Assembly: GCA_017555105.1 (NCBI GenBank)
Contig: JAFZHB010000018.1
Location: forward strand, 104,715 to 168,714
DNA length: 64,000 nt
From: Alistipes sp.
GTDB taxonomy: Bacteria; Bacteroidota; Bacteroidia; Bacteroidales; Rikenellaceae
Reading direction: 5' to 3'
Shown here: positions 5,784 to 18,723 of the stretch, piece by piece
Layout: each line of letters begins with the position of its first letter
Position numbering within the stretch: position 1 is the stretch's first letter
Translations under genes and position numbers: made by a program
Notes under the pieces: generated by a model
Told to the model about the DNA's origin: nothing
What the model saw: only the letters and a program-made list of their open reading frames with translations
Database searches by the model: none

Positions 5784-5990
5784 CGTGTCGAAATTTTCGA
5801 GTAAGAAGCGTCGGGGCTCACCACACGCAAAAAGCGCCGTGCAGGGCATTAAAAGTGCTGGATAAGCCACCCGAAATGCTTAATTTTATGCGAAGATACA
5901 AAGAAATGTGAGTTTTTTTGCAAAATAGTTGTGAGATTTAATTTTTTTTCTGATATTTGCACTCCGAAACGGGAACACTAATCCCGAAAG

Positions 5991-6062
5991 GCCGAAATAG
6001 CTCAGCGGTAGAGCACTTCACTCGTAATGAAGGGGTCCCGAGTTCAAATCTCGGTTTCGGCT
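5991..6062 (+). tRNA. tRNA-Thr(CGT), integration target
   Basis: A full cloverleaf: acceptor GCCGAAA/TTTCGGC with discriminator T, D-arm GCTC..GAGC, anticodon arm CTTCA-CTCGTAA-TGAAG with anticodon CGT, and T-arm CCGAG-TTCAAAT-CTCGG. CCA is not encoded. Its 3' 48 bases, with one further base on, recur at 17850-17898, showing it is the attachment site of the element that follows. The gene is intact because the element brings an identical 3' end. Confidence 0.97.
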
Positions 6063-6063
6063 C
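6015..6063 (+). repeat. attL: 49-bp direct repeat inside tRNA-Thr
   Basis: Bases 6015-6063 are identical to 17850-17898 and diverge immediately on both sides (C versus A before, G versus A after). The repeat runs from the anticodon arm of tRNA-Thr to one base past the discriminator, as is typical of tyrosine-recombinase crossover at tRNA 3' ends. Confidence 0.95.
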
Positions 6064-6071
6064 GAAAAATC

Positions 6072-6101
6072 AAGGAGTTACAGCAATGTAACTCCTTTTT
6101 T
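6072..6101 (+). terminator. Element-supplied terminator after tRNA-Thr
   Basis: Inverted repeat AAGGAGTTAC / GTAACTCCTT followed by TTTTT. It lies just inside the left end of the element, so after integration the tRNA uses this terminator while the original chromosomal one is at 17901-17939. Confidence 0.85.
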
Positions 6102-6151
6102 GTTGGGTAAAAATCGACTCAAATAGGGGTAAAAAAGGCTCTTCTTAGGGA

Positions 6152-6174
6152 AATGTTGTACCTAAAGTTGTACC
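6152..6174. repeat. Candidate integrase arm-site repeats, left end
   Basis: AATGTTGTACC at 6152-6162, and a second GTTGTACC at 6167-6174, 12 bases further on. The same 11 bases AATGTTGTACC occur at 17771-17781 near the right end. Repeats near both ends, inside the att sites, are where arm-type recombinase sites lie in lambda-like and CTnDOT-like elements. The function is inferred. Confidence 0.4.
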
Positions 6175-6216
6175 CAAAACACATCACACATCCGCTTGCT
6201 GAAAGATTGCAAGTCA

Positions 6217-7428
6217 ATGAAAATCAAAGTTATTTTACGAACGCAAAAGAGAAACAAGGACGGACAATCGCCGTTGATGTTGCGTTTTAGTCACAATCGC
6301 ACCACAAAAATGGTCTCTTTAGGGGTATCTGTGGAGGCCTGCTATTGGAATCAAGAGGGCGAAATGCTTTTGCCCGATTGTCCGAATAGGGCTGCGTTAC
6401 AGAGCCTGCTCGACAAACAGGTCTCCGCCTATCAGAAAAAGATGCAACGCCTCGAAGCGTTGGATATTCCCATTACATTCCAAACACTCCTGGAATCGAA
6501 AGAACGCAATTGGGGGATGACTATTGAAGATGGTTTTGTGGCAGAAATCGAGCGACTGAATGCGCTTGGGAAAATTCAATCTGCCAACAAACATCGTTAT
6601 GCATTGAAAGTGCTGTCGGAGTTTCAATCAGTCCAAATGGCTCTGGAACAAATAGATCTGACTTATCTACAGAATTTAGAGCGTTTTTTTAGAGAACGCG
6701 GAAATCAATCCAACAGTATTGCAACTCGTTTTGCCATCTTAAAAGCAATCTATAATAAAGCGATTAAAAAGGGAAAATTTGCCGTTCAACAAAATCCGTT
6801 TAACCTTTTTCAGGTAGGTGCTTTGTGGACAACCACCCGCAAGCGAGCAATCGCCAAAGATGATGTGCGCAGACTAATAGAGCTTTCCATTCCATCAAAT
6901 TCCCAAAATCATTATTCTCGCTTAGCCAGAGATCTTTTTGTCTTCTCCTACTTTACCGCAGGAATGAATTTTGGAGATATTGCACGACTACGCTACCTAA
7001 ACATTACGCAGGGAAAGGTGAGTTATTATCGGCATAAAACACAACGCCTTATTTCGTTGCAACTATCCCCCATTGCAACTGCAATTGTTGAAAAATATAG
7101 CCATGCGGAATATGACTCCGAAGACTATATATTCCCAATTCTTGATCGAACCAACCATAGGACACCGCAACAAGTATATGACCGTATTCACAAGACACTC
7201 CGCAAGGTCAATTGTGCTTTGAGAATCTTGGGCAAGCAAATCGGCCTAGATTTTCCGCTCACGACCTATGTGGCCCGTCATACCTATGCAACTGTTCTCA
7301 AACGATCGGGAGTAAGTGTTGCGTTAATCAGCGAATCTCTTGGACACTCCAACCTGTCAACAACTCAAATCTACCTCGACTCATTCGAAAATGAACAGAT
7401 TAATGAGGCGATGCAACATTTGCTGTAA
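6217..7428 (+). CDS. int: Tyrosine recombinase (element integrase)
   Basis: Site-specific recombinase of the Bacteroidota phage-integrase type, 403 residues from the ATG (an upstream TTG at 6196 is less likely). It has an N-terminal arm-binding domain (1-95), a SAM-like core-binding domain (100-200) and a catalytic domain (205-400). Catalytic residues visible are K274 (RHKTQ), R354 (YVARHTY), H377 (LGHS) and nucleophile Y386 (TTQIYL). The first catalytic arginine, normally the R in RGM, is replaced by A248 (FTAGMNF); IntDOT of CTnDOT also lacks this arginine, having serine. Its place beside the att tRNA makes it the element's own integrase. Confidence 0.95.
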   Translation: MKIKVILRTQKRNKDGQSPLMLRFSHNRTTKMVSLGVSVEACYWNQEGEMLLPDCPNRAALQSLLDKQVSAYQKKMQRLEALDIPITFQTLLESKERNWGMTIEDGFVAEIERLNALGKIQSANKHRYALKVLSEFQSVQMALEQIDLTYLQNLERFFRERGNQSNSIATRFAILKAIYNKAIKKGKFAVQQNPFNLFQVGALWTTTRKRAIAKDDVRRLIELSIPSNSQNHYSRLARDLFVFSYFTAGMNFGDIARLRYLNITQGKVSYYRHKTQRLISLQLSPIATAIVEKYSHAEYDSEDYIFPILDRTNHRTPQQVYDRIHKTLRKVNCALRILGKQIGLDFPLTTYVARHTYATVLKRSGVSVALISESLGHSNLSTTQIYLDSFENEQINEAMQHLL

Positions 7429-7489
7429 GGACGGACTTTGCCGTAGGGGCTTTTTTAAGGCCCCTCGGTAAAGTTTGTCCTTTTTTTTT
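7429..7489 (+). terminator. Strong terminator after int, first member of a hairpin pair
   Basis: A 52-nt near-palindrome starting GGACGGACTTTGCC and ending in AAAGTTTGTCC, with loop TTTTTTAAG-like and nine Ts behind. A related 52-nt hairpin ends the cargo operon at 17601-17652. The next gene's promoter box TACCTTTG follows at 7491-7498. Confidence 0.85.
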
Positions 7490-7518
7490 GTACCTTTGAT
7501 TGCACCAACAATCCAGCT

Positions 7519-8400
7519 ATGGCGATCATTAAACTAACGCTTACATGGGATGAGTTTCAACAGATGAAGCAACTCACCTCGCAATTTTACGGAATAACTT
7601 CCAACCTCTCTTTTCTGGTCAATTATGAGGACTACAAAGGTTCTATCCCGCCTGAAACCGTGCAACTGTGGGCTTCAACAGAAATAGGAGAACTATTTGC
7701 AGAAACAACCATTTGCTGTTATTTCCAGAAAGCGGGAATTGATATGTGTGGTCAACAGTCCATACTCAGTGCGGTGCAAGGAGTATATATGTGTTACCTT
7801 GCAAAGCGCATCTTAGAAAAAGCCTATGCTGATGAAAATTCATTCAATTGGGATATCGATCACTTCTACCGAGATCGTATAGAAGATGAATTGATACGAT
7901 TGTATGGATTCTGTGTTTCGATGCAAAAAAAACAGCATACCGAACAACGGATTGAGTTGATTTCGCAAACGAGCGAGAAAATAGTGTTAAACAACTACGA
8001 CAATTATCTGTGTCGGGTGCTCAAAAAATACTGCGAGGAACATGTGCCCAATGTTCAAATGAAATATGAAGCTCTTAAGAATAAGAAAGGAGGGCGTCCG
8101 CAAGACGATAAATTTATTACAGATGTGATGGTGGGGACCTATAAACTTCTGAAACAATTCTCACGGGAAACAACCGCCATTAGCAATGGTATTTGCCGTT
8201 TTATTTATCGTCTCATACGCTGTTTTGATAGTTCCTTTTATCAATTTCAGGAGGAAAAAGTGGCTATCAAAAGTATCCGAACACGCCTAAATCATGCTTT
8301 GTCCATCGCCATAGAGCCGTCCTTGGATCTTTTCCAATCTTGTAGCCTTGAAGATTTAGCGGAAGTGCCACTAAAGAGATACGAAGATTTATATTCATAA
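7519..8400 (+). CDS. Element protein of unknown function
   Basis: A 293-residue protein I do not recognise. It has no signal peptide or membrane segment. A basic stretch KNKKGGRPQDDKF near residue 195 suggests nucleic-acid contact, followed by a helical region with several aromatic residues. A Bacteroidota -7 box TACCTTTG lies 20 bases upstream of the ATG, with short leader, so it probably starts a transcript separate from int. It stands where elements of this type often carry a control or replication accessory protein, but nothing in the sequence shows such a role. Confidence 0.6.
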   Translation: MAIIKLTLTWDEFQQMKQLTSQFYGITSNLSFLVNYEDYKGSIPPETVQLWASTEIGELFAETTICCYFQKAGIDMCGQQSILSAVQGVYMCYLAKRILEKAYADENSFNWDIDHFYRDRIEDELIRLYGFCVSMQKKQHTEQRIELISQTSEKIVLNNYDNYLCRVLKKYCEEHVPNVQMKYEALKNKKGGRPQDDKFITDVMVGTYKLLKQFSRETTAISNGICRFIYRLIRCFDSSFYQFQEEKVAIKSIRTRLNHALSIAIEPSLDLFQSCSLEDLAEVPLKRYEDLYS

Positions 8401-8512
8401 GTTCCCTCATTTTTGAAGAAAAACCAATAAAAATAAGCCTAAATTCTTCTCCTAAGCGGATTCGTTGTAGCCATTTTCTTGCCATACTTTTGTGCCATAT
8501 TTATAAATTAAT

Positions 8513-10279
8513 ATGGCAAAAGAAATCAAAATAGCCCAAGGACAATACTTGTCCGATGTACTGAAAGCGATTCCCAGTAATGTGTTGCTGAACAAGCAAA
8601 TCACTGGATGTGGCGCAACGACACTTGAAATTGATGCCCCGAGGCACTCGATTATCATCGAGCCGAATGTGCCTGTGATACGAGGTAAGGCTGAAAAATA
8701 TCCTCATGTGCTACCCGTATATGAGGCGATTTCAATGGAACAAGTGGTAGCGTATCTTCAAAAAGAGGGGTGGCGTAAGATTGTCACAACGCCTGAAGGT
8801 TTTGGTAGCAAAGTCTGTCCCGCTCTAGAAAATGTATGGCCGAACTATCAACAAGATTTCTTCCTGCTCTTTGACGAATGCGAGAAGATCATCCAAGATG
8901 TTGGCTATCGAGGTGATATAGCTTTACCAATCGATGATTTCTTTGCCTTCTCAAAGAAGGCGATGGTTTCAGCAACCCCAATCATACCAAGCGATCCTCG
9001 TTTTAGAGAGCAGGGCTTCTCGGTGGTGAAAATACAGCCGACATATGACTACAAACAACACCTTAACCTATGCTTTACGAATAACACCGTGGAAGTGCTG
9101 GATCGCTTTATAGCTAAGCACAAAGAACACATCTGTGTCTTTATCAACTCTACGGATACTATCCTCCGTATCATCGAACGATTACATTTGGAGGAGCGAA
9201 GCCAAGTATACTGTAGCGAGAAAAGTGTAAAAAAGTTGCGGGAGAAAGGCTATAATCGCTGTTACGATATCTTACAAGATCAATTTGCAGAGATTTGTTT
9301 CTTTACCAGCCGTTTCTATTCGGCTGTTGATATTGAGTTGCCCTATAAACCGTATGTTGTCATCTTGTCCGAGGTCATTGGTGCGCCTTTCTCAGCTATT
9401 GATCCTGCAACAGAGGTTGTGCAAGCAATCGGCCGATTTAGAAAGGGAACAGCTAGTATCTGCCACATCACCAATTTAGCCCCCAAAATGGCAGCCCTAT
9501 CCAAAGCCGACTTAACAAAACGATTGGAAAGCCATGAAAAAGTGTATCAACAGATATATGCGTTGCCTGCTCAAAATCGCAATGAAATTGAGGCAAAGAA
9601 GCAGGCTTTACGGGGTATGGATCACAAAATCTATATGACACCCCAGGGAAAGCGAAATTACTTCATGTGGGATAACGCCTTTGATGATGCACGCATCAAG
9701 CAGTATTACCAAAATAAAGAGAAATTGGAAAGGGCTTACTCAAACGCTCCTTTCCATGTGAAAACCTATACACAGCGATACTACTTAACAGATGCGGATA
9801 GGACTAGTTTAGAGACGCCCACAAAAAGCAAAAGCGCTTTGTGGCGAGAAGTTATCCGAGTAGCCAGAAAGATTTACAAAAAGAAAGGCGGCCACGTAAC
9901 AGAAGATGAGATCGTCAACATTATAGGGGAGAAACATCGGGATAAAATACACAGTTGTTTCCTAATCTCGGCGAAGGAGATTGAACGGCTAAACTACAAA
10001 GAAAGTGCTATCAAAAAGGCCGTTCAGCAGAAAGAGCATCTTCTACGAGTCAAATCGGAATTATGGGATGATGTTCACCGCATCTTTCAACAAGGCAAGG
10101 TCGAAACCGTGGCACAAATCAACTCAACCATGAAGAAATTACTCGATCAACACTCGATAGAACCTTATGGGAGAGTCGACAAACGCTACATAGAACTATT
10201 CTTCAAAATTAGAGAGGGGAAACGCAAAGGAGCAAGATGTATCCAACTGCTCAACAAAAGGCGACATCCCAAACAATAA
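8513..10279 (+). CDS. SF2 helicase-like protein with degenerate Walker A
   Basis: A 588-residue protein with superfamily 2 helicase motifs in order. Motif I is GCGATT (32-37), with alanine at the position of the usual lysine. Motif II is DECEK (121-125), motif III SATP (153-156) and motif VI QAIGRFRKG (from residue 304). The C-terminal third is highly basic and helical and may bind nucleic acid. Lack of the P-loop lysine suggests weak or unusual ATP hydrolysis. It has its own TACTTTTG promoter box (8485-8492) and ends in a hairpin terminator at 10289. A role in element replication, recombination or anti-phage function is open. Confidence 0.75.
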   Translation: MAKEIKIAQGQYLSDVLKAIPSNVLLNKQITGCGATTLEIDAPRHSIIIEPNVPVIRGKAEKYPHVLPVYEAISMEQVVAYLQKEGWRKIVTTPEGFGSKVCPALENVWPNYQQDFFLLFDECEKIIQDVGYRGDIALPIDDFFAFSKKAMVSATPIIPSDPRFREQGFSVVKIQPTYDYKQHLNLCFTNNTVEVLDRFIAKHKEHICVFINSTDTILRIIERLHLEERSQVYCSEKSVKKLREKGYNRCYDILQDQFAEICFFTSRFYSAVDIELPYKPYVVILSEVIGAPFSAIDPATEVVQAIGRFRKGTASICHITNLAPKMAALSKADLTKRLESHEKVYQQIYALPAQNRNEIEAKKQALRGMDHKIYMTPQGKRNYFMWDNAFDDARIKQYYQNKEKLERAYSNAPFHVKTYTQRYYLTDADRTSLETPTKSKSALWREVIRVARKIYKKKGGHVTEDEIVNIIGEKHRDKIHSCFLISAKEIERLNYKESAIKKAVQQKEHLLRVKSELWDDVHRIFQQGKVETVAQINSTMKKLLDQHSIEPYGRVDKRYIELFFKIREGKRKGARCIQLLNKRRHPKQ

Positions 10280-10288
10280 CCTTACACA

Positions 10289-10311
10289 AGAGTCCTTCGG
10301 GACTCTTTTTT
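10289..10311 (+). terminator. Rho-independent terminator after the helicase-like gene
   Basis: AGAGTCC-TTCG-GGACTCT stem with a stable TTCG tetraloop followed by a T tract. Confidence 0.92.
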
Positions 10312-10452
10312 GCATTTAAGTGTATCACTTATTAGAGGAGATACTCTCCAAAACAACCCCCTCCCTGCTGTATATGGGGAAATACTTTTTACAACCTAAA
10401 CATCCGACTTGTTCTTAGTGTAATTATTTAATAACCTTTAATTTGTAGAACT

Positions 10453-11160
10453 ATGCAACTAAGACAATCAATGCGCAGAGCAGCCAAAATGAGGTTGGCT
10501 CTTGCAGGGGCAAGCGGAAGTGGCAAGACCTATTCTTCGCTACTTATTGCCTATGGTATGACGGGCAACTGGTCGAGGATCGCCGTAATCGATTCCGAGA
10601 ACTGCTCAGCAGATCTTTACGCCCACCTAGGACCTTATCAGGTGCTAACCTTGGAGAACTACGCACCTGAAACCTACATCGAGGCTATCGGTATCTGTGA
10701 GCGTGCAGGTGCCGAGGTGATTATCATCGACAGCATCTCCCATTGTTGGGATTATCTGCTTGATTTCCACGCCAACCTCCAAGGCAACTCGTTCGCCAAT
10801 TGGGCAAAGGTTACGCCACGACAAAATGCCTTTATCCAGCGTATCCTGACCTCCTCGGCTCATGTTATCTGCACGATGCGCTCGAAGCAGGATTATGTCC
10901 TCTCGGACAAGAACGGCAAAATGGTGCCCGAGAAGGTTGGATTGAAAGCTGTGCAGCGCGATAATGTAGACTACGAATTTACCGCCGTGTTGGATATTGC
11001 CATGAATCACAAGGCAACAACCTCAAAAGATCGCACAGGTCTTTTTACGGGACATCCTGAGTTTACGATCACGCCTGCCGTCGGACAAGCCATTCTGCGC
11101 TGGTGTAACCTCGCACAACCCTCGGTACAACCTCAAAACACGGAGTCTTATGCAGCCTAA
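10453..11160 (+). CDS. RecA-fold ATPase, Sak4/AAA_24-like
   Basis: A 235-residue RecA-like ATPase. Walker A is GASGSGKT (19-26) and Walker B is VIIIDSISH (89-97). A sensor-like CTMRSKQDY stretch near residue 138 is typical of the phage Sak4/AAA_24 group, single-strand annealing or recombination ATPases found in phages and Bacteroidota islands. The gene overlaps the next by 11 bases, so the pair is coupled. Upstream (10312-10452) is a 140-base leader with no gene. A direct role in recombination is family knowledge; the specific function here is inferred. Confidence 0.75.
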   Translation: MQLRQSMRRAAKMRLALAGASGSGKTYSSLLIAYGMTGNWSRIAVIDSENCSADLYAHLGPYQVLTLENYAPETYIEAIGICERAGAEVIIIDSISHCWDYLLDFHANLQGNSFANWAKVTPRQNAFIQRILTSSAHVICTMRSKQDYVLSDKNGKMVPEKVGLKAVQRDNVDYEFTAVLDIAMNHKATTSKDRTGLFTGHPEFTITPAVGQAILRWCNLAQPSVQPQNTESYAA

Positions 11161-12208
11161 CTATCAGCCTGCCATACCCGTGGCTTCGGGTCAGGATTTC
11201 GACGCTCGTTTTGCGTTGACTCCCTATGTCGAGGAGGCCTCGATTATCGAAGAACGACCTATTACACCCGTTATTCCTCTGGGTGTGCGTCATAGTCGCC
11301 ACTTTATCGAAGCCAACACACACGCTGTCGATATTGCTCATCTGCGTAATGATTGTGTCGTGCCCGTCTTCAACAAGGATAATGAGGTGACCATCTCGCA
11401 TCAGACCTTTATAGAGACGGTGCTGGGTGCAGCCTATCGGATGTTTCCGCGCGAGGTGTTTGATGCCCCAGACATTGTGGTATCTCACATTATCAAAGGG
11501 CGTATTCCCGAGGCAATTCACAAGCCCGTGCATCAGTTGCTTGAATCGGATAAGACGATCTACTACGAGCGGATGGCCTTCTGCTTCGAGATACCCACCA
11601 TTTATCAAGATGTGGCGGGTTGTCGGCTCAACCTCTCCATCGGTGGGGTGCGAGCCTATAACCACGAAAATCTCTATTCGAGAAAGACGGCGGAAAAGTT
11701 CAAGGTGTTCATCGGCTTTAAGAATCTGGTCTGTTGCAACCTATGCGTTTCAACCGACGGGTTTCAGCGCGAACTGCGAGCAATGAGCGCCCAAGATCTC
11801 TTCGGGGCGACTTTGACCCTCTTTGAACACTACGATGCCGAACGACATGTGCGGCAGATGGCTCAGCTGCAAGAGCAGGGGCTGACAGAGCATCAATTCG
11901 CCCAACTAATCGGAAAAACTCGTCTCTATCAGTATCTGCCTACTCCCGAACGGAAGCGATTGCCCGCCATGGAGTTTACCGATTGCCATATCAATGCGGT
12001 AGCTAAGGCGTATTACGGGGATGAACATTTTTCTCGTGATGCGAATTCCGAAATTGACCTTTGGAGGCTTTACAACCTCTTTACAGGGGCGAATAAATCG
12101 AGCTACATCGACACCTTCTTGGATCGTTCGCTCAATGCCACCGAACTCGCTTCGGGCATTGGGCGCGCCTTGCAGGGCGATGAGACCTATCGGTGGTTTA
12201 TCGAATAG
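11150..12208 (+). CDS. DUF3871 family protein
   Basis: A 352-residue cytosolic protein matching, from memory, the DUF3871 family of Bacteroidota mobile elements: FIEANTHAVDIAHLRNDC near residue 48, IKGRIPEAIHKPVHQLL near 120 and YERMAFCFEIP near 140 are the conserved blocks. The family has no established biochemistry but resembles phage and plasmid DUF932-type proteins in layout and regularly sits next to the RecA-like ATPase, as here with an 11-base overlap. A DNA-transaction role is likely but unproven. Confidence 0.8.
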   Translation: MQPNYQPAIPVASGQDFDARFALTPYVEEASIIEERPITPVIPLGVRHSRHFIEANTHAVDIAHLRNDCVVPVFNKDNEVTISHQTFIETVLGAAYRMFPREVFDAPDIVVSHIIKGRIPEAIHKPVHQLLESDKTIYYERMAFCFEIPTIYQDVAGCRLNLSIGGVRAYNHENLYSRKTAEKFKVFIGFKNLVCCNLCVSTDGFQRELRAMSAQDLFGATLTLFEHYDAERHVRQMAQLQEQGLTEHQFAQLIGKTRLYQYLPTPERKRLPAMEFTDCHINAVAKAYYGDEHFSRDANSEIDLWRLYNLFTGANKSSYIDTFLDRSLNATELASGIGRALQGDETYRWFIE

Positions 12209-12541
12209 TTTTCCCACCCCCTCCTGCTGCTTGACAAGTGGCACGGAGGGGGGCTAGGGAATGCCACAACGACACCACGCATAAGCAAATGCAACCTGAT
12301 ATTCAGGACATTGCGTTTATATTAGCAATAGGATACAAATGATTGTATTTCAGCGCGGATTAGGTCGATCCGCCGACTATCCGTCTATGTTTCAACGAGC
12401 GGGTTTGAGCAAGTTGTAATTAAGAAAAATAATATCCAATACGCTGCGCTATTGTAAAGTTTGCTTCTTTTGTAGACATTTGCTGTGGATTTTTGCAACA
12501 ACCCCGAAAAAAGAGGTGTTGTCGTATTGCGTTTTCGGGAA
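12209..12541. other. Hairpin-rich non-coding region in the element
   Basis: Holds no convincing gene. It contains several inverted repeats: CCCCCTCC / GGAGGGGG (about 12215-12250), ATACAA-aTGa-TTGTAT near 12333, GCGGAT/ATCCGC (12355-12373) and CCCGAAAA/TTTTCGGG (12503-12510 with 12532-12539). Clustered hairpins in the one long gap between the DNA-transaction module and the cargo could be a replication origin, a transfer origin or regulatory DNA; no choice can be made from sequence alone. Confidence 0.45.
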
Positions 12542-12567
12542 ATGTCACTTAACTTTGTAGGTGACAT
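12527..12567 (+). promoter_or_regulatory. Promoter with flanking palindrome before the cargo operon
   Basis: A -33 TTG at 12527-12529, a 20-base spacer and -7 TAACTTTG at 12550-12557 fit the Bacteroidota consensus. A perfect 7-bp inverted repeat ATGTCAC (12542-12548) / GTGACAT (12561-12567) brackets the -7 box and looks like an operator. Transcription would start near 12562. Confidence 0.6.
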
Positions 12568-12753
12568 AAAAATTTACGGAAGCGTAAGTTTATTCTCGTA
12601 GAGAAATCTGGTAAATTTCAATGCGATGAGAATAGGCGACCGCATCTCCCGTCGTATCCGTCAGGATATAGGCGCGGGGTTGTTGCTTATTTTATCGCAG
12701 GGCATTACCAGAGCCTCTCTACAAATAAGCCATCAACCCTGCGCTTTCTTTTT
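12562..12753 (+). ncRNA. Candidate structured leader RNA / attenuator
   Basis: The predicted transcript folds into successive helices: AAATTTACG-GAAG-CGTAAGTTT (12570-12591), TTCTC-GTA-GAGAA (12593-12605), a long-range helix TCTGGTAA (12607-12614) with TTACCAGA (12705-12712), TGCGAT (12622-12627) with ATCGCA (12694-12699), and inside it TATCC-GTCA-GGATA (12655-12668). A competing stem, CGCAGGG (12696-12702) with CCCTGCG (12737-12743), is followed by TTTCTTTTT. The two folds share bases 12696-12699 and exclude each other, the layout of a transcription attenuator or riboswitch for the genes from 12804 on. No known RNA family is recognised. Confidence 0.5.
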
Positions 12754-12803
12754 ACTACTAACCGTCTTCTGTGGGTTGAAAGAAGGGATAAATGTGTACA
12801 AAT

Positions 12804-13526
12804 ATGAAAAATGTGCTTTTGCTATTATCGATGCTATGTTTTGCATCTAGTTCTTTTGCGGAAAACTATGGCACATATACATGTGATGGGTATAAATATA
12901 ATGTAGATGATAAATTTCTCCAGGCCATTTCTAAATATTGTCCAGCTGCATCTATTGCCTTAAAACAAGGCCACAACTTGGTGTATTATAGCGACTTGGA
13001 GGAGTTGCACGGGGTCCCAGATGAAGTGTGGATGTCGTTATATGGTCTTTCAAAAAAGCAATTAAGAAAATTTGATGGTCCACAAATGATCTTTGAAAGT
13101 TCAAGACTTACTCAAGCGAGAATATCCATCAGTAAGTTGCGCTCTTTTTCTCCACCGCTACGGGTTCTAGACTTAACTGCTACTCGGTTTCTAGAGTATG
13201 GGATTGTAAATGACATAGTGAAATTGTTGCCAACGGCCGAGAATAAAATAATAAAACAACGCATTATAGTCTATTTAAATCTAAAAAAGTTGGATACCGT
13301 GACGGATGAAACATACGATGAAATATTGGTGTATAAGAATTTCAATGATGTAGACGACGCAGAGAGATACACAAATAGCATTAGAAAATATATAACTCTT
13401 GATTTTTGGGAAAGGTTGGAAACAGGGCGTCTTACAGCTGTTGATATATCTATATTAAATTCTTATGGAATCTTTCTGAGGCAAGATTTATCCATGATGC
13501 ATCTGGGTATTTCACTCAATAAATAG
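12804..13526 (+). CDS. Exported protein of unknown function (cargo 1)
   Basis: A 240-residue protein starting with a clear signal peptide (MKNVLLLLSMLCFASSSFA, cut before EN), so it is periplasmic or secreted. I do not recognise the mature domain; it has a cysteine pair early (TCDGYKY and KYCPAAS) that could form a disulfide. Coding DNA is markedly AT-rich compared with the chromosome. It is the first gene after the candidate attenuator. An ATG at 12792 would add four residues. Context fits an effector, immunity or surface-exclusion protein, but no motif decides. Confidence 0.6.
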   Translation: MKNVLLLLSMLCFASSSFAENYGTYTCDGYKYNVDDKFLQAISKYCPAASIALKQGHNLVYYSDLEELHGVPDEVWMSLYGLSKKQLRKFDGPQMIFESSRLTQARISISKLRSFSPPLRVLDLTATRFLEYGIVNDIVKLLPTAENKIIKQRIIVYLNLKKLDTVTDETYDEILVYKNFNDVDDAERYTNSIRKYITLDFWERLETGRLTAVDISILNSYGIFLRQDLSMMHLGISLNK

Positions 13527-13583
13527 GGTTATTGTAATATATAATACTTACATATTGACATATTGTTAGTTAATATCTATTCT

Positions 13584-14081
13584 ATGAAAAAGTTTTTACT
13601 ATTGATTGCTATTTGTTTCTCGGGAGTTGTTGATGCTCAAATAGCTTATACTCCTTTTTTTCGGGATGAGGTGCGAGAAGATGTACATGTTCCCAACTTG
13701 GATTGGGAGATAGGAAGCTCGCGAAACAAGCAATTCGAAAGGCCAAGCTATAGTAATTCCCCCGAACCAAAAGGGACGCTAACTGTGGTAAAAAACTGTA
13801 TACTTATTTCACCTAATAATACGCTCCTAGAAGCTTCTATCCATGTAAAGAAAACTTCTGAAGGTGCATTTAGTCTAGGAATACTACATAGAGGGGTATT
13901 TATGTGGTTAGCACCTTCAGACATTCACTCGACTAAAGATCTAGACAACATATCTATAGAAGACCAAAAGCGGTGGCCTTATATCGCAGTATGGAAAGGA
14001 AGCGATTATTTAATTATCGGTTTCTTGCCGAATTTACAAACAACAGATGAACCTTTCTATGAATTTGAATCACATCGTTAA
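13584..14081 (+). CDS. Exported protein of unknown function (cargo 2)
   Basis: A 165-residue protein with an N-terminal signal peptide (MKKFLLLIAICFSGVVDAQ). The mature part is beta-rich, with no recognised family; an alternative TTG at 13563 would place seven residues before the signal and is unlikely. AT-rich like its neighbours. It ends 2 bases before the lipoprotein gene, so cargo 2 and 3 are co-translated. Confidence 0.6.
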   Translation: MKKFLLLIAICFSGVVDAQIAYTPFFRDEVREDVHVPNLDWEIGSSRNKQFERPSYSNSPEPKGTLTVVKNCILISPNNTLLEASIHVKKTSEGAFSLGILHRGVFMWLAPSDIHSTKDLDNISIEDQKRWPYIAVWKGSDYLIIGFLPNLQTTDEPFYEFESHR

Positions 14082-14083
14082 TT

Positions 14084-14548
14084 ATGAAAAATTTATTTGC
14101 ACTCTGTGGATTGTTGCTTCTATTAAATAGTTGCGATCTTCTCCCTTCCACTAAAAAAGAAAAATTAGAACAAGAGAAAAGAACTAAGATAGAGCAATTA
14201 AGAAAAGAATACAATAAAAAAGTGATTATAAGGGATCGAGAGTGGCTAACCCGACATGAATCGATAGCTAGAAATCTAGCAATACAATTTACGCGGGATC
14301 AAGGATACTCTATACAGTCAATTAAGTTGAATGGACAAAGCGCAAGTGACATAGGCGCTAACGAAGTGGGGGTATTTTCGTATGAACAGCCTGTGCCTAT
14401 GGTCATAAAATCAGCTTATTATAATTTTAATATAACAACAGGAGACATTAGCAATAGAGGCGGTCTAATATACATTCAAATTAGAATTTGTTATGCACAA
14501 TCTGGGGCTCCGCAATGGACCGTTGACTATTTTCAAGCATTTTCGTAA
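14084..14548 (+). CDS. Small lipoprotein of unknown function (cargo 3)
   Basis: A 154-residue lipoprotein: signal MKNLFALCGLLLLLNSC with lipobox LLNSC (C17), then a charged coiled-coil stretch (about residues 23-55, rich in K/E/R) and a compact beta domain at the C terminus. The residues after the cysteine, DLLPS, lack the acidic K/S-D/E-E surface export signal of Bacteroidota in strict form, so its face on the outer membrane is uncertain. No family is recognised. It follows cargo 2 by 2 bases and precedes the metallo-beta-lactamase-fold gene by 8. Confidence 0.65.
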   Translation: MKNLFALCGLLLLLNSCDLLPSTKKEKLEQEKRTKIEQLRKEYNKKVIIRDREWLTRHESIARNLAIQFTRDQGYSIQSIKLNGQSASDIGANEVGVFSYEQPVPMVIKSAYYNFNITTGDISNRGGLIYIQIRICYAQSGAPQWTVDYFQAFS

Positions 14549-14556
14549 TAAATTAG

Positions 14557-15585
14557 ATGGATATGTCGAAAATGGTTCGCACCTTCCATCCCGTGGGTCA
14601 TGGTGCATTTTATACGGAACGCTTTTATGATGACAATGGCGAGAATACCGCCAATGTCATCTTTGATTGCGGATGTTTCGAGGCTTGTAAGGCTGGTATC
14701 TCCTCGAAAGTGTTTGAGCAGCGAATTAAAACGACTATTCACAAGGAGTTCTGTAAAGACACAAAAATTGATGCGCTGTTTATTTCACACTTTCACACTG
14801 ATCACATCAATGGAATAGATGAATTGTTGAATTACTGCCAAGTAGCGAACTTATATATACCATGTTTGCAGGATGTCGTACTTGTCGAATCGTTTCTCTA
14901 CAATAGTATCATAGAAGGTTCAGAAGATTGCAAATCTAATCAAGTCCTGCGAAAAATTGCAGAGCGGGAATATAATACAGAAATCGATGACTCGGGTAGA
15001 TCAATCATCCCAATAGGTGCATGGCTTTATCGTTCATATGGTCCAAGCATATCACACTCAAGAGCCACCCTGATTAAGCGACAGATTCGCCAGCAATTAT
15101 CAGCGCAGATTTTCATGCAGAATGGGGTTGATTTTTCAGAGTTAAGCAAGGCAATAGCTCGTATTGGTATTGATAAGTGTAAAACTATGTATCAACAGAT
15201 CTTTGGTAATAATCATAATTCATACTCAATGACTCTGTATTCAGGATTAAATTGTTTACGGGATTGTTTAGGTATGTGCCATACAGCATGTCTATATACA
15301 GGTGACTATAAAGCCAAGGGGAAGTTTGCGGAATTGGAGCGTTTCTATACCACATCATTAAAGCGAGTGTATATTCTTCAAGTCCCGCATCATGGTTCAG
15401 AGCATAACATCAATAATAAACTATATTCCCCCGAGCGATTGTGTGTCGTATCGGCAGGAGTAACCGATAAGTATGGCCATCCCGATCAACAGACACTTGT
15501 GGCAATTCAAAATCAACGAGGAATCCCGATTATAGTGACTGAAGATCCGAAAACCAAGCAAGTATTTACCTACAATATATTATAA
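14557..15585 (+). CDS. Metallo-beta-lactamase-fold hydrolase (ComEC/Rec2-like) (cargo 4)
   Basis: A 342-residue cytosolic MBL-fold enzyme. The metal motif HFHTDH spans H78-H83 in ISHFHTDHING, a later Asp lies in LYTGDYKAKG near residue 250 and a His ligand lies in VPHHGSEHN near residue 278. The PHHGS plus TGD pattern is that of the ComEC/Rec2 C-terminal hydrolase group, often nucleases or phosphodiesterases, and related stand-alone MBL proteins occur in anti-phage loci. A 90-residue cysteine-bearing insert lies between the first and second metal blocks. It has no membrane segments, so it is not a DNA uptake channel. The substrate is unknown. Confidence 0.8.
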   Translation: MDMSKMVRTFHPVGHGAFYTERFYDDNGENTANVIFDCGCFEACKAGISSKVFEQRIKTTIHKEFCKDTKIDALFISHFHTDHINGIDELLNYCQVANLYIPCLQDVVLVESFLYNSIIEGSEDCKSNQVLRKIAEREYNTEIDDSGRSIIPIGAWLYRSYGPSISHSRATLIKRQIRQQLSAQIFMQNGVDFSELSKAIARIGIDKCKTMYQQIFGNNHNSYSMTLYSGLNCLRDCLGMCHTACLYTGDYKAKGKFAELERFYTTSLKRVYILQVPHHGSEHNINNKLYSPERLCVVSAGVTDKYGHPDQQTLVAIQNQRGIPIIVTEDPKTKQVFTYNIL

Positions 15586-15659
15586 TTATTATAGCAACAT
15601 ACTTCTTGAACAAGAATTAAAATTTGAGGTGGTTATCATGCTAATCTAATAATCAATAT

Positions 15660-16208
15660 ATGAAAAAACTACTTCTCTCTTTCCTAGCCCTTGTTGTGTT
15701 GGGCGTTGGTGCCTATTTGTGGGCTAATTGGATCTCGGTTGACGAGATTGATGAACTAATCGCAGGCAACTACGAATTGGTTTTATGTGATATATCTTTG
15801 GGCGATCAGGCTGCCGACACAATCATCATCAACCGTGCTCCTGCTCGCGGTGCAAAAATCCAACTGCATGTCTCGGAGGAAGGCAAGCTGACGATAACGA
15901 CTGACGAGGAGTATCCCGTAATACAAAGTCTTGCTACGCACGGCTGGTGGTCAGTTTACACGCTGCGCGAAAAGTGGTTTACATGGCGACATTGCCTCTC
16001 AAAGCGCTACGCGTCGGAGGCTATGAAGGAGACCAGCGGAAATGCTCGTAATGTGGTTCTTACGAAGTCGGGTGGATACAGCAAAGCATCGCTTGGTATT
16101 TATTTCCACCGCGTGTTTGTTGCGGACGATGTCATCACTCTCGGGGTTGATATAGACGACCCAACATCCGATCAGATTTACTGGCAACTGCTCTTTTACA
16201 AAAGATAG
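15660..16208 (+). CDS. Membrane-anchored protein of unknown function (cargo 5)
   Basis: A 182-residue protein with one N-terminal hydrophobic segment (residues 4-24), either uncleaved anchor or signal, followed by an extracytoplasmic domain. No family is recognised. From this gene on, codon use shifts toward the GC-richer host style, unlike the AT-rich genes 12804-15585, so the cargo seems to be assembled from at least two sources. Confidence 0.55.
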   Translation: MKKLLLSFLALVVLGVGAYLWANWISVDEIDELIAGNYELVLCDISLGDQAADTIIINRAPARGAKIQLHVSEEGKLTITTDEEYPVIQSLATHGWWSVYTLREKWFTWRHCLSKRYASEAMKETSGNARNVVLTKSGGYSKASLGIYFHRVFVADDVITLGVDIDDPTSDQIYWQLLFYKR

Positions 16209-16299
16209 AAAGGGTAAGAGCCGATAAACAAAACCGTTTGATATGCTTGAAATTTGGCGAAATTTTGTCATTAAGAGTTATTGAAAGGATAACCTGAAA

Positions 16300-16686
16300 G
16301 TGCTTTGGATTCTGTGTAAGGTGCGCGCCTATACGCTGTTCCGAAAGTCACTCAGGGTCTCTTTCAAGTGTGTCAGAGGGGCGTGGTACTGCGATATCCC
16401 AGGCTGGCCGCAGATCTATTTCCCCAATACGGTGATGGTGGGCGATGCCTCGTTGCTGATTCAGGAACAAGCGGGCGAGGGGGACTATGTCACCTTTCAG
16501 GTCGCATTTGGCAACAAGTACAAGGCGCACCGTGGGTGTGTGACACTATCGCAAAAGCATAGCAGTCTGACGGGTGGTGCGTACTACTATGGAGGGGAGC
16601 GATTCTCGGATGTATGGCTCTGCCCTGTCACGCTGTTTGTATTGGGACAATATCCAAACTTTATCTATTTCAAACGGATTGAGTGA
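16300..16686 (+). CDS. Small hypothetical protein (cargo 6)
   Basis: A 128-residue beta-rich protein with many aromatic residues (WYCDIPGWPQIYF, GGAYYYGGERF). I do not recognise the family. The likely start is the GTG at 16300; no ATG is available before residue 46, so the start is uncertain and the gene could be slightly shorter. It lies 91 bases after cargo 5 and 39 before the lipoprotein gene. Hypothetical. Confidence 0.4.
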   Translation: MLWILCKVRAYTLFRKSLRVSFKCVRGAWYCDIPGWPQIYFPNTVMVGDASLLIQEQAGEGDYVTFQVAFGNKYKAHRGCVTLSQKHSSLTGGAYYYGGERFSDVWLCPVTLFVLGQYPNFIYFKRIE

Positions 16687-16725
16687 TTCGATAATGCTGC
16701 ATGCAAAATAGTGTAAATATCAGTC

Positions 16726-17598
16726 ATGAAACGCATCTTATTTCCGCTTCTGTTCTTGCTTATTTTTGCAGGGTGTGGTGGTAAGCGCCCTACAACACAA
16801 GAATCCGCTGTGGAGGGAATTCAGATTAAGTTGCCCAAAAAGCAGGAGTTTAAGGGACAGCCGAAAGCATTAAATCTCGAACCACTACCGCCGATTGATT
16901 CGTTATTGTTGCAAAAAATTGCAGCGGATAGTGCGATAACAATCTGCTACACGAAACCCGTAAGAGGCTACACGGTACGAGGCTGGGGCATCCCAAACGA
17001 GATCTTTGAAGAGTCCTGGGATGTGGTACTCCATTTCAAAGGGAATGAGCAGGACTTTATGGTGAATGGTGGTCGAGTCTATGATTTGGCGGATTCGAGC
17101 CAACGGCAAGTGATTGCAAGCTATGAGGAGCGGTATCTACAAGGTGCTTTATGCGCACCCTTCGATCTTTTCTTCTTTGCCGATTTGGATTTTGATGGAG
17201 TTGAGGAGCTGATTACGGATCGAGAGCCTCATGCGGGCAGTCAGAGAAGTCTACCAGCCTTTACCGAAATATATACCTTTCGGAATGGCTATCCACAACG
17301 CGCTACAGCATTGTTCCGCGCCAAAAACACGCTCTTTTCCGCCATCGAACCATATTACTTTATGGTCCATCCTGAGCGCATGGAGCTTTATCAATACCGT
17401 GATGGCGGTGCTTTGGGCGGCGGATGGGAGGTCTATGCCTATGAGCAGGCTAACTATCGCTATGATCACTATGTACATTGGGAGGAGGTGATCCCCACCG
17501 ATTCGATTGCTGTAGAGATCCGCAATCCACAAAATCAGCCTCGCAGATCCTTCATCACGGATAAAAAGACCTTCGATAAAGAGCGTTGGACATACTAA
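16726..17598 (+). CDS. Lipoprotein with DxDxDG calcium-site-like motif (cargo 7)
   Basis: A 290-residue lipoprotein: signal MKRILFPLLFLLIFAGC with lipobox FAGC (C17). After a low-complexity linker the domain carries FADLDFDGVEELI, a D-x-D-x-D-G-x-x-E-L loop like those of calcium-binding FG-GAP/XAC2610-type repeats. No exact family is recognised. It is the last gene of the element and ends 2 bases before the 52-nt hairpin related to the one after int. An immunity or surface role is possible by context only. Confidence 0.65.
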   Translation: MKRILFPLLFLLIFAGCGGKRPTTQESAVEGIQIKLPKKQEFKGQPKALNLEPLPPIDSLLLQKIAADSAITICYTKPVRGYTVRGWGIPNEIFEESWDVVLHFKGNEQDFMVNGGRVYDLADSSQRQVIASYEERYLQGALCAPFDLFFFADLDFDGVEELITDREPHAGSQRSLPAFTEIYTFRNGYPQRATALFRAKNTLFSAIEPYYFMVHPERMELYQYRDGGALGGGWEVYAYEQANYRYDHYVHWEEVIPTDSIAVEIRNPQNQPRRSFITDKKTFDKERWTY

Positions 17599-17600
17599 AA

Positions 17601-17655
17601 AGACAAACTTTCCCCAAGGGTCTTATTAAAGCCCTTTGGGAAAAGTCTGTCCATG
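17601..17655 (+). terminator. Terminal hairpin of the cargo operon, second member of the pair
   Basis: A 52-nt imperfect hairpin (AGACAAACTTTCCCC ... GGGAAAAGTCTGTCC). Aligned to 7429-7480, arms and loop match at most positions, so both hairpins have a common origin. No long T tract follows, so termination here may be weaker than at 7429. Confidence 0.6.
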
Positions 17656-17770
17656 ACGAAAATTCATACCCAAAACTTCCAACTTCTATTGAGCCATCGA
17701 ATAATCGTTCGGTGGATTTGTTACCTATTGTTTCACTAGTAAGCAGATATGTGGAGTGATTGTTGGACCC

Positions 17771-17781
17771 AATGTTGTACC
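17771..17781. repeat. Candidate integrase arm-site repeat, right end
   Basis: AATGTTGTACC, the same 11 bases as at 6152-6162, 69 bases inside attR. The rest of 17656-17849 holds no gene. Confidence 0.35.
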
Positions 17782-17849
17782 AACGGGAAAAAGATAGCCG
17801 ATTTTTATTTGTAATCCCTCGATTTTTAATCAATCACGAATGAGATGCA

Positions 17850-17898
17850 ACTTCACTCGTAATGAAGGGGTCCCGAGTTCAAATCTCGGTTTCGGCTC
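17850..17898 (+). repeat. attR: 49-bp direct repeat, partial tRNA-Thr
   Basis: An exact copy of 6015-6063. The upstream half of the tRNA is missing (no acceptor 5' strand or D-arm), so it is not a second tRNA gene but the right junction of the element. Confidence 0.95.
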
Positions 17899-17900
17899 AA

Positions 17901-17939
17901 AAACAAGCGATAACCAACAGGTTATCGCTTGTTTTGTTT
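17901..17939 (+). terminator. Original chromosomal terminator of tRNA-Thr
   Basis: A perfect 13-bp stem ACAAGCGATAACC / GGTTATCGCTTGT with an AACA loop and TTTTG tail, directly after attR. Before integration it would have followed the tRNA. Confidence 0.85.
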
Positions 17940-18285
17940 ATACGCCAGATGAACTCGGGACCCCGAAGCCTCTCATATGACCCACTAGGTGCATAAAAAA
18001 AAACAAACACCCATGAGTGCTCATTGGTGTCTAGTGCTTGTAAAAACTGATTTACAGATATGAGTTGATAATGATAGTCATTTTTTTTGTGAAGACCTGC
18101 GGATCGTAGGCATCTACTGTTTGGCGTTTAACAAATCGTCAAGCTTCCTCAAATTTTCCATTCTCACACATGTGCTTAAAGCATCGTTCTGCATACTCAT
18201 AATGGGATAGATACTCTTTTGCATTGTCGTACATACCTCGATTTATCATATAATTGGCAATCAAAACAAAGAGCAATCAGACACA
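17940..18285. other. Mobile-element debris between attR and the recombinase remnant
   Basis: No intact gene. The 14 bases GAACTCGGGACCCC at 17951-17964 are the reverse complement of the T-arm side of the att repeat. On the - strand a short open frame, bounded by stops at about 18139 and 18275, reads NYMINRGMYDNAKEYLSHYE and on to a stop; it looks like a decayed protein end of the TPR-like kind. Both point to earlier insertions and deletions at this tRNA locus. Confidence 0.4.
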
Positions 18286-18723
18286 ATGTCGGTATTGAAG
18301 AAACAGAAGAGTGAGTTAGAGAATAAGTTGAAAAAATGTAAGGTCAGTCGTGGTATGGGCGATATTGATGAAGATGTTTACACCACCACGGTTGAGGTTA
18401 TCCAAGAAAAACTCGCTAAAATTGAGGTAGAAATCGCAAAGGTCAAAAGAAATTTATCGAACCTTACCTCAACGGCAGACGAAGTGGTCGCAACTTGTTG
18501 TACATTAGGATGTTTGTGGAGTAGTTCGGAATTAGAATTGAGTCAAAAAATCCAAAATTTACTCTTTCCGAGCGGAATTTTGTGGGATAAGGAAATTGGC
18601 AATTATCGAACCATAGACGAGAATAAAGCTCTTTCTATAATATCTAAATTATCAGATAGTTACAAAAATAAAAAAGAGGAAAATTCTCTCGAAAATTCCT
18701 CTTTGGTAAATTTGTGCGGATAA
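18286..18723 (+). pseudogene. C-terminal remnant of a serine site-specific recombinase
   Basis: The 145 residues match, from memory, the C-terminal region of large serine recombinases of Bacteroidota mobile elements: a coiled coil (ELENKLKKCKV, IQEKLAKIEVEIAKVKRNLSNL), the WSSSELELSQKIQNLLFP block, the GILWDKEIGNYRT strand and the ending SLVNLCG. The resolvase catalytic domain with its serine and the zinc region are absent. The same frame stays open about 40 bases upstream of the ATG and continues the similarity, so the 5' part was lost by deletion. The stop codon lies inside tRNA-Leu on the other strand. Not expected to be active. Confidence 0.75.

Follow-up and report, generated by a model that had tools for sequence, protein, structure and literature searches.

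This analysis concerns a 64,000-nucleotide stretch of Alistipes sp. (assembly GCA_017555105.1, contig JAFZHB010000018.1, positions 104,715 to 168,714 of the forward strand), called the window here, which lies on contig C16 of a 1.77-Mb genome that is 86% complete. It carries an 11.9-kb element at tRNA-Thr(CGT). We consider it fairly probable that this is a tRNA-integrating, non-conjugative Bacteroidota element whose cargo operon sits behind a conserved cis-acting leader switch. The element part of this reading is established at the sequence level by the integration site, its repeats, occupied and apparently empty sites in relatives, a conserved core and exchanged cargo. The core consists of an integrase, orf293, a degenerate superfamily 2 (SF2) helicase, an AAA_24 ATPase and a DUF3871 protein, and by comparison of these genes the element is a member of a Bacteroidota family. 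The island is an ordinary kind of element, and no name was found for its family; its most novel part is the leader RNA. A pseudoknotted RNA that is found in 85 of 91 genomes of a gut genus, before surface-type genes and mobile cargo, would amount to a level of gene regulation not yet charted in gut Bacteroidota.

Integration site and element boundaries

The ends of the element are defined by the following features:

5991..6063, + strand, tRNA-Thr(CGT), whose 3' part forms attL (ARAGORN)
6015..6063, + strand, attL core, left copy of the exact 49-bp repeat (repeat comparison)
17850..17898, + strand, attR core, right copy of the exact 49-bp repeat (repeat comparison)

The two repeat copies are identical over 49 bp and agree at 53 of 54 positions when extended to 54 bp. 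The left copy is the 3' part of the tRNA, and the element's own integrase gene (6196-7428) adjoins it, as in elements that target tRNA genes. The GC content per kb is 0.37-0.52 within the element, 0.55-0.62 in the left flank (1-6 kb) and 0.44-0.63 in the right flank (19-64 kb), where it exceeds 0.5 in all intervals but two. The initial annotation had described a compact integrative element in tRNA-Thr, an exact 49-bp direct repeat around 11.9 kb of AT-richer DNA and a tyrosine recombinase beside the tRNA. The repeat match, the GC profile and the Pfam matches of the recombinase agree with this description, as do the occupied and apparently empty sites of relatives.

In a related species (G039), a relative of the element of about 16 kb occupies the same tRNA-Thr(CGT) with the same repeats (att copies at C9:65340-65393 and C9:49408-49461). 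The two sequences are 93.8% identical over 5882-12786, a span that covers core and leader and stops just short of the first cargo start codon at 12792. Past 12786 the alignment consists of islands only: 65 bp (97%), a stretch around the DUF6717 gene (93%), and stretches at the last lipoprotein gene and the right end (75-85%). The element family shows cargo exchange behind a constant core and leader.

A search for relatives with a vacant tRNA-Thr site had also been proposed. Fifteen further loci were fetched, one of which lacked the tRNA, so that 14 were assessed. In 12 of these 14, the fetched stretch holds a single repeat copy and no adjacent open reading frame (ORF) resembling the window integrase, a call that is blind to a dissimilar integrase or to a second repeat outside the fetched stretch. 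The site therefore is apparently empty in these relatives. A related integrase (43%) lies beside tRNA-Thr(CGT) in G020, and an 8.8-kb element lies between two exact repeats at this tRNA in G174. The gene for elongation factor G (EF-G), 87% like that of the window, follows the tRNA after 57 bp in G085 and after 0.8 kb in G048. The right flank is not strictly colinear, since the window EF-G gene sits beyond the element, tRNA-Leu and a gene for a flavin adenine dinucleotide (FAD)-dependent protein.

AT-rich DNA extends beyond attR up to tRNA-Leu(TAG) at 18714, and this piece (17904-18713) looks like a remnant of another tRNA-targeting element. A coiled-coil-like ORF of 145 amino acids (18286-18723) in this piece extends into the end of the tRNA, and a T-arm-like sequence lies in inverted orientation near 17950.

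A conserved, probable leader RNA before the cargo operon

The core is followed by a long untranslated region, which had been noticed initially, though not interpreted, and is real (12210-12790). Its 3' end is accounted for by a conserved RNA of about 190 nt that ends 38 nt before the first cargo gene. The parts of this region are:

12495..12506, + strand, segment U, upstream of the promoter box and complementary to A3 (complementarity test)
12550..12557, + strand, promoter box TAnnTTTG of the RNA, with TTG at 12527-12529 (consensus)
12563..12753, + strand, conserved pseudoknotted leader RNA (nhmmer, covariance model, covariation)
12608..12614, + strand, loop L2a (CTGGTAA), complementary to L4a at 12705-12711 (TTACCAG)
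12622..12627, + strand, segment X (TGCGAT), complementary to X' at 12694-12699 (ATCGCA)
12671..12686, + strand, segment A, with A5 complementary to B3 and to the P3 5' strand, and A3 to U (complementarity test)
12733..12748, + strand, segment B, with B5 complementary to C, and B3 to the P1 5' strand and to A5 (complementarity test)
12773..12779, + strand, segment C (GGGTTGA), 12 nt before the cargo start codon and complementary to B5

An nhmmer search with the noncoding stretch found the RNA in other elements, Sphingobacteriales among them, and a covariance model was built from an alignment of 17 core sequences. This model matches 49 of 86 helicase-type sources (51 places, E<=0.01), always on the strand of the helicase gene. 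The RNA lies downstream of the helicase in all places but L150:2863, which adjoins another AAA_24-DUF3871 pair. Among cultured strains, Phocaeicola vulgatus ATCC 8482 carries a copy (L109, 15470-15694). When 150 genomes were scanned, with at most 16 candidates scored per genome, 104 matched at E<=0.01, a few of them weakly (e.g. G026, 0.0013). These comprise the 85 of 91 genomes of the genus, the genome of the window included, and 19 of the 59 others. Genomes of the genus have up to 16 matches each, and the window's own genome has ten, one of them weak. In a phylum-wide draw of 296 genomes, again including this one, 23 matched at E<=1e-4 under strict filters and with at most eight candidates scored.

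Rfam 15 scans of the window and 18 other loci gave no match for the RNA. Hits to miRNA and plastid families in these scans were below threshold and are attributed to chance; otherwise only tRNAs were found. The RNA was not found in the searched portions of the literature, those of PMC10994844 and PMC2864571 included. It may nevertheless have an earlier name, either among the Bacteroidota motifs named in PMC2864571 or in a 2017 survey of 224 motifs.

Fold of the RNA

A total of 85 copies were aligned, of which 83 are distinct after two identical rows were dropped. The 82 alignment sources were hand-picked among those with matches; near-duplicates and the weak copy L195 were omitted, and L124 lies below the cut-off. 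Across the aligned copies, 27 of the 29 modelled pairs change on both sides. The proportion of paired cells is 95.1%, compared with 84.5% in shuffled and 43-60% in slid alignments, and none of 500 shuffles reached the observed values. Two further pairings lie outside the model. At least five Watson-Crick pairs between L2a and L4a are present in 83 of 83 copies (mean 22 and maximum 33 in 200 shuffles), and at least five between X and X' in 80 of 83 (mean 7, maximum 15), while the swapped controls gave 3 and 5 of 83, respectively. This covariation firmly supports a compact pseudoknotted body with six modelled helices and two interlocked pairings, and hence the covarying, conserved fold that characterizes a cis-regulatory leader.

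Segments A and B have more than one potential partner. The z-scores are 11.9 for A5-B3, 8.4 for A5 with the P3 5' strand and 11.2 for B3 with the P1 5' strand, and complementarity extends into both flanks, with 12.7 for B5-C downstream and 12.0 for A3-U upstream. Control pairs stayed low (A3 x U2 -0.6, B5 x D2 0.3, A3 x C -0.7, B5 x U 1.2, A5 x U 0.1). A5 and B3 thus each have two statistically supported partners, whose helices may be mutually exclusive, and B5-C is supported in the same way.

Promoter box and downstream genes

A TAnnTTTG box lies at most 62 nt upstream of the RNA in 78 of 83 copies, compared with one of 83 in each of two control windows, and TTG stands at the expected place in 52 of the 78 box-bearing copies. 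The RNA would therefore have its own promoter with a Bacteroidota-type box. Downstream, an ATG-initiated ORF of at least 20 amino acids starts after 25-90 nt in 78 copies, with a median of 48 nt and quartiles of 44 and 52 nt. Among 82 downstream proteins, there are matches to BspA-type LRR_5 (12), DUF4988 (4), BACON (3), collagen-like (3), Lipocalin_4 (3) and Mfa-like fimbrillin (1) families; the genes after the RNA often encode surface-type proteins.

Several observations weigh against a cis-acting leader switch. The start site of the RNA rests on a consensus, and at E<=0.01 the RNA is missing from 37 of the 86 helicase-type sources, many of which are short. The 17 model-building sequences are among the 83 copies, and the alignment leans to the modelled structure; moreover, the z-scores allow for kinship among the copies only through the control pairs. 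The pairing A3 x B5, which is expected if A and B made one long helix, is weak (z 3.8). U-A3 is not universal, with at least eight pairs in 31 of 83 copies (20 of 48 helicase-type loci and 11 of 35 others), and a leader starting at the promoter box does not explain it, since U lies upstream of this box. An ORF of at least 80 amino acids, or one open to the locus end, starts within 400 nt downstream in all 83 copies and within 100 nt in 61, a count made on one strand only and without a control. The count of ATG-initiated ORFs is a weak test as well, with 40 of 83 in a control window and a median that falls within the preset 25-90 nt. It is the narrow spread alone that speaks for a fixed spacing between RNA and start codon, and within these limits the position is near-constant.

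In several copies with the larger gene farther off, a small peptide ORF lies in between. Peptides of 35-43 amino acids sharing VEQGFA are located between the RNA and larger lipoprotein-like genes in L188, L190, L191, L193 and L167, and are possibly a small-peptide family. A further copy (L214:8177-10752) precedes a gene that resembles a cytosine methyltransferase by eye, followed by a second gene; restriction-type cargo may use the leader too.

Proposed function of the leader RNA

In the proposed mechanism, the integrase would recombine the tRNA-derived att core, and the cargo operon would be transcribed behind the leader RNA from the RNA's own promoter, as suggested by the consensus box. Helices near the cargo start would compete: B3 would pair with the P1 5' strand or A5, A5 with the P3 5' strand or B3, and B5 with C. 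P1 and P3 would be formed in one state and A5-B3 in the other, and B5-C would close off the sequence ahead of the start codon. The balance between the helices might then be shifted by a ligand, a protein or a physical cue, and cargo translation thereby opened or closed. As a guess, U could be an operator, or it could let read-through transcripts from the core fold differently (U-A, B-C) than transcripts from the RNA's own promoter. Since the same leader class precedes chromosomal genes, often of surface type, the cargo of the element would come under a form of control shared with the host. A search for the signal of the RNA can build on the 83 aligned copies, on the paired segments and on the near-constant distance to the start codon.

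Some of these properties are shared with known RNAs. Riboswitch-like leaders, e.g. the cobalamin class, likewise have a leader-like position and a conserved fold with a loop-loop contact, and the putative competing helices near the translation start would be a further similarity. However, this RNA has no Rfam 15 match, and its downstream genes encode mostly surface-type or uncharacterized proteins instead of one pathway. GOLLD, ROOL and HEARO are also structured RNAs on mobile DNA. The RNA is shorter than GOLLD and ROOL, and it differs from this group in its near-constant distance to a start codon and in that no RNA-guided nuclease gene was recognised in the window element.

Alternatively, the RNA could act in trans as a separate noncoding RNA ended by its own T-rich run, its proximity to start codons reflecting shared descent of a module. 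The aligned copies do have a T-rich run after B3, the RNA forms a compact pseudoknotted body, and both U and C, outside this body, are complementary to parts of it. We nevertheless regard a trans-acting RNA as unlikely, because the spacing to the start codon is narrow before proteins of many families and because the B5-C complementarity reaches toward the translation start. The block could also be a DNA element, such as an origin, an origin of transfer (oriT) or an operator pair, with U/A and B/C as inverted sites for protein binding. The location of U upstream of the promoter box and its covariation with A3 would suit paired operators, and the block does stand at the border of core and cargo. 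Yet covariation extends over six modelled helices and both interlocked pairings, G-U pairs are numerous, and the block is oriented with a promoter box and a gene. In addition, nine of the ten copies in the own genome have no element core gene in their fetched flanks (0.8-9 kb). A DNA element is therefore considered very unlikely, and a leader switch acting in cis is preferred.

Turnover of RNA-led genes

The chromosomal positions of the RNA were compared between the window's own genome (G000, nine loci) and 20 loci of G039, G027, G024 and G034, which represent 23 of 43 matches. Between species, eight locus pairs have at least one flanking protein in common at 60% identity (three proteins in one pair, two in another), and three of the pairs involve G000; matches that were not fetched could add further shared positions. 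At the rubrerythrin locus, the RNA is present in one of 30 loci, that of G000, as judged from loci reaching up to 1.5 kb downstream. In G020, G032, G054 and G023, no insertion is present there, and rubrerythrin is separated from the next gene region by 129-288 bp. A 55-bp direct repeat (89%; L202:8350-8408 and 11617-11676) flanks a stand-alone RNA-led gene of G000, a gene that relatives lack. The repeat does not flank the other RNA copies of this genome, where only this repeat was looked for. Because the positions, as far as compared, mostly differ between close species and the rubrerythrin locus has the RNA in G000 alone, at least some RNA-led genes turn over like accessory units.

This turnover, together with the covariation of U and C outside the RNA with A3 and B5 inside it, also allows a more speculative reading. 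The RNA would mark mobile gene units and might help to place them. It would then serve as a guide or tether when exchangeable cargo is inserted after a fixed leader, whether in tRNA-borne elements or on its own in the chromosome. We rate this as highly improbable; if true, the RNA would recognise DNA on both sides of its own gene.

Element family and core genes

The core genes and an associated palindrome are located as follows:

6196..7428, + strand, tyrosine recombinase (integrase; Pfam Arm-DNA-bind_5, Phage_int_SAM_5 and Phage_integrase, above cut-off)
7428..7484, no strand, 56-bp imperfect palindrome after int, with an inverted copy at 17597-17652 after the last cargo gene
7519..8400, + strand, orf293, no assigned function, with homologues at the same place in other elements
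8513..10279, + strand, degenerate SF2 helicase-like protein, the family signature (motifs, homologue searches)
10453..11160, + strand, AAA_24 / phrog_1366 ATPase, weakly Sak4-like (Pfam, PHROG)
11150..12208, + strand, DUF3871 protein (Pfam 3.4e-138)

A search for the order integrase, helicase, Sak4-like ATPase and DUF3871 in Bacteroidota had been suggested, and this order does recur. The helicase profile found 79 loci in genome contigs, mostly of Bacteroidota, and three in viral contigs. The 79 titles include Alistipes, Bacteroides, Phocaeicola, Parabacteroides, Dysgonomonas, Prevotella, Pedobacter, Mucilaginibacter and others; two contigs are titled Firmicutes and may be misbinned. Within the 150 genomes, a helicase homologue is present in 16 (own included, E<=0.001). 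A helicase ORF is present in 83 sources; in 63 of them an integrase lies at most 5.5 kb upstream, and in 41 a tRNA lies next to the integrase. A direct repeat of at least 15 bp lies downstream in 26 of the 83 and gives element sizes of 6.2-15.4 kb; 21 of these 26 have a tRNA by the integrase. The 26 include a few near-duplicates (L109, L129), some other sources are cut by contig ends, and six loci (L020-L025) were dropped from this count as duplicates of named contigs. AAA_24 occurs in fewer family loci than DUF3871. Repeats that are not derived from a tRNA but look related by eye were seen in L085, L091 and L126.

Plasmid carriage was considered and rejected. Two Bacteroides helicase matches labelled as plasmids (L026 and L027, B. 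finegoldii plasmids 5 and 17) lie among housekeeping genes and look like chromosome pieces. A blastn search of the RNA stretch against a plasmid collection gave no match. Three short matches (68-69%) connect the element core to unannotated fecal 'Bacteriophage sp.' records.

The labels Sak4-like ATPase and DUF3871 were confirmed, the ATPase matching the Sak4-like phrog_124 more weakly (9.3e-6) than phrog_1366. For the degenerate helicase, the motifs GxGAT, DExx, SAT and QxxGRFR are kept, as judged by eye in a homologue alignment, and weak ResIII matches occur in seven of 34 homologues (best 0.0078); the usual P-loop lysine is absent, and no Pfam family matched the protein of the window. Profiles of the helicase and of DUF3871 found nothing useful among solved structures. 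In the literature searched, DUF3871 occurs in one paper. By analogy, the integrase would both integrate and excise the element, and the helicase, AAA_24 and DUF3871 proteins may process or replicate the excised DNA. The 56-bp palindrome is probably terminator-like. It is found between genes in relatives, and as six copies lie along the element in L022, it may be a spreading repeat of this kind.

Transfer between cells

The initial annotation saw no transfer, capsid or packaging gene. This holds for the 12 proteins of the window element, among which family scans recognised no relaxase, mob, terminase, portal, capsid or packaging gene; the one oddity is a 'tail protein' PHROG match of the metallo-beta-lactamase-fold (MBL) cargo hydrolase. 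The window element thus has neither a recognised relaxase or mob gene, as in an integrative mobilizable element, nor recognised packaging-, capsid- or terminase-related genes, as in a phage satellite. The cargo of 22 relatives was scanned as well (144 of 154 non-core ORFs of at least 110 amino acids). In the lists of the 25 commonest families (out of 69 and out of 56), RadC, resolvases, integrases, AbiH, HEPN, D12 methyltransferase, BACON, BspA-type repeats and replication-type proteins are represented, with no relaxase, terminase or portal among them. Single matches to a 'major tail protein' and to a 'structural protein with Ig domain' are among the families listed.

Since no transfer genes were recognised, the element may hitch-hike on a helper. 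Mobilisation in trans and a phage satellite-like island, the two options of the initial annotation, are both candidate routes. Such helper-dependent elements are a subject treated in the reviews PMC11389934 and PMC5704250.

Movement by the conjugative machinery of a helper, via an unrecognised oriT, has a chance that we place slightly below even, and the lack of a recognised relaxase among the 12 proteins of the window element is what such an element would show. Packaging of the island as a phage satellite by a helper phage is quite unlikely in our estimate. The combination of integrase, Sak4-like ATPase and helicase, the lack of a recognised conjugation gene, the size of 6-15 kb and the single tail- and structural-type PHROG matches among relatives, together with one to the window MBL protein, would fit a satellite. 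Against this stand the lack of a recognised terminase, portal or capsid gene in the window and the count of three confirmed loci in viral contigs versus 79 in genomes. The only contig with a terminal repeat (L154) is also explained otherwise, by a gene repeat. This viral contig (14,396 bp, 104-bp terminal repeat, element-like gene order) was considered as an excised circle and rejected: it is no proof of a circle, because the repeat, as tested with 60-bp pieces, is present in triplicate where paralogous lipocalin-like genes begin, and the contig yielded no tRNA 3' end.

The element resembles the mobilizable Bacteroides elements of the NBU1/NBU2 type in being small and tRNA-integrating with a tyrosine recombinase; it differs in having no recognised relaxase or primase gene and in carrying the helicase-AAA_24-DUF3871 core and the leader RNA. 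With phage satellites such as phage-inducible chromosomal islands (PICI) and P4-like elements, it shares a compact build, an integrase with DNA-metabolism genes and exchangeable cargo, but no terminase, capsid-size or packaging-interference gene was recognised in it, and few loci lie in viral contigs.

Cargo genes

Seven cargo genes follow the leader RNA:

12792..13526, + strand, exported-type protein, 244 amino acids, no Pfam family (N-terminus by eye, Pfam)
13563..14081, + strand, exported-type protein, 172 amino acids, no Pfam family (N-terminus by eye, Pfam)
14084..14548, + strand, lipoprotein-like, 154 amino acids (N-terminus by eye, Pfam)
14557..15585, + strand, metallo-beta-lactamase-fold hydrolase (Pfam, PHROG, defence models)
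15660..16208, + strand, membrane-anchored type, 182 amino acids (comparison with G039)
16300..16686, + strand, DUF6717 (16243-16707 is 93% identical in G039)
16726..17598, + strand, lipoprotein-like, 290 amino acids (relative at the right end of the G039 element)

By eye, five of the seven proteins have a signal- or lipoprotein-like N-terminus, in keeping with the initial description of an operon of mostly exported proteins. The 'tail protein' PHROG match of the MBL hydrolase extends across the hydrolase region (2.9e-12). Among the defence models, its best match is LmuA (9.3e-17), and Avs1a is far below the cut-off. A Lamassu or Avs1 defence system was rejected, as only the MBL protein matched and none of the element's proteins matched a partner family.

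The 182-amino-acid gene shares 97% DNA identity with G039 over 65 bp at its start (15658-15722), and the proteins are 29% identical. In L022 (13928-17712), five neighbouring proteins have signal peptides that are similar by eye. The combination of constant signal DNA and divergent mature proteins in these two cases suggests recombination at signal sequences.

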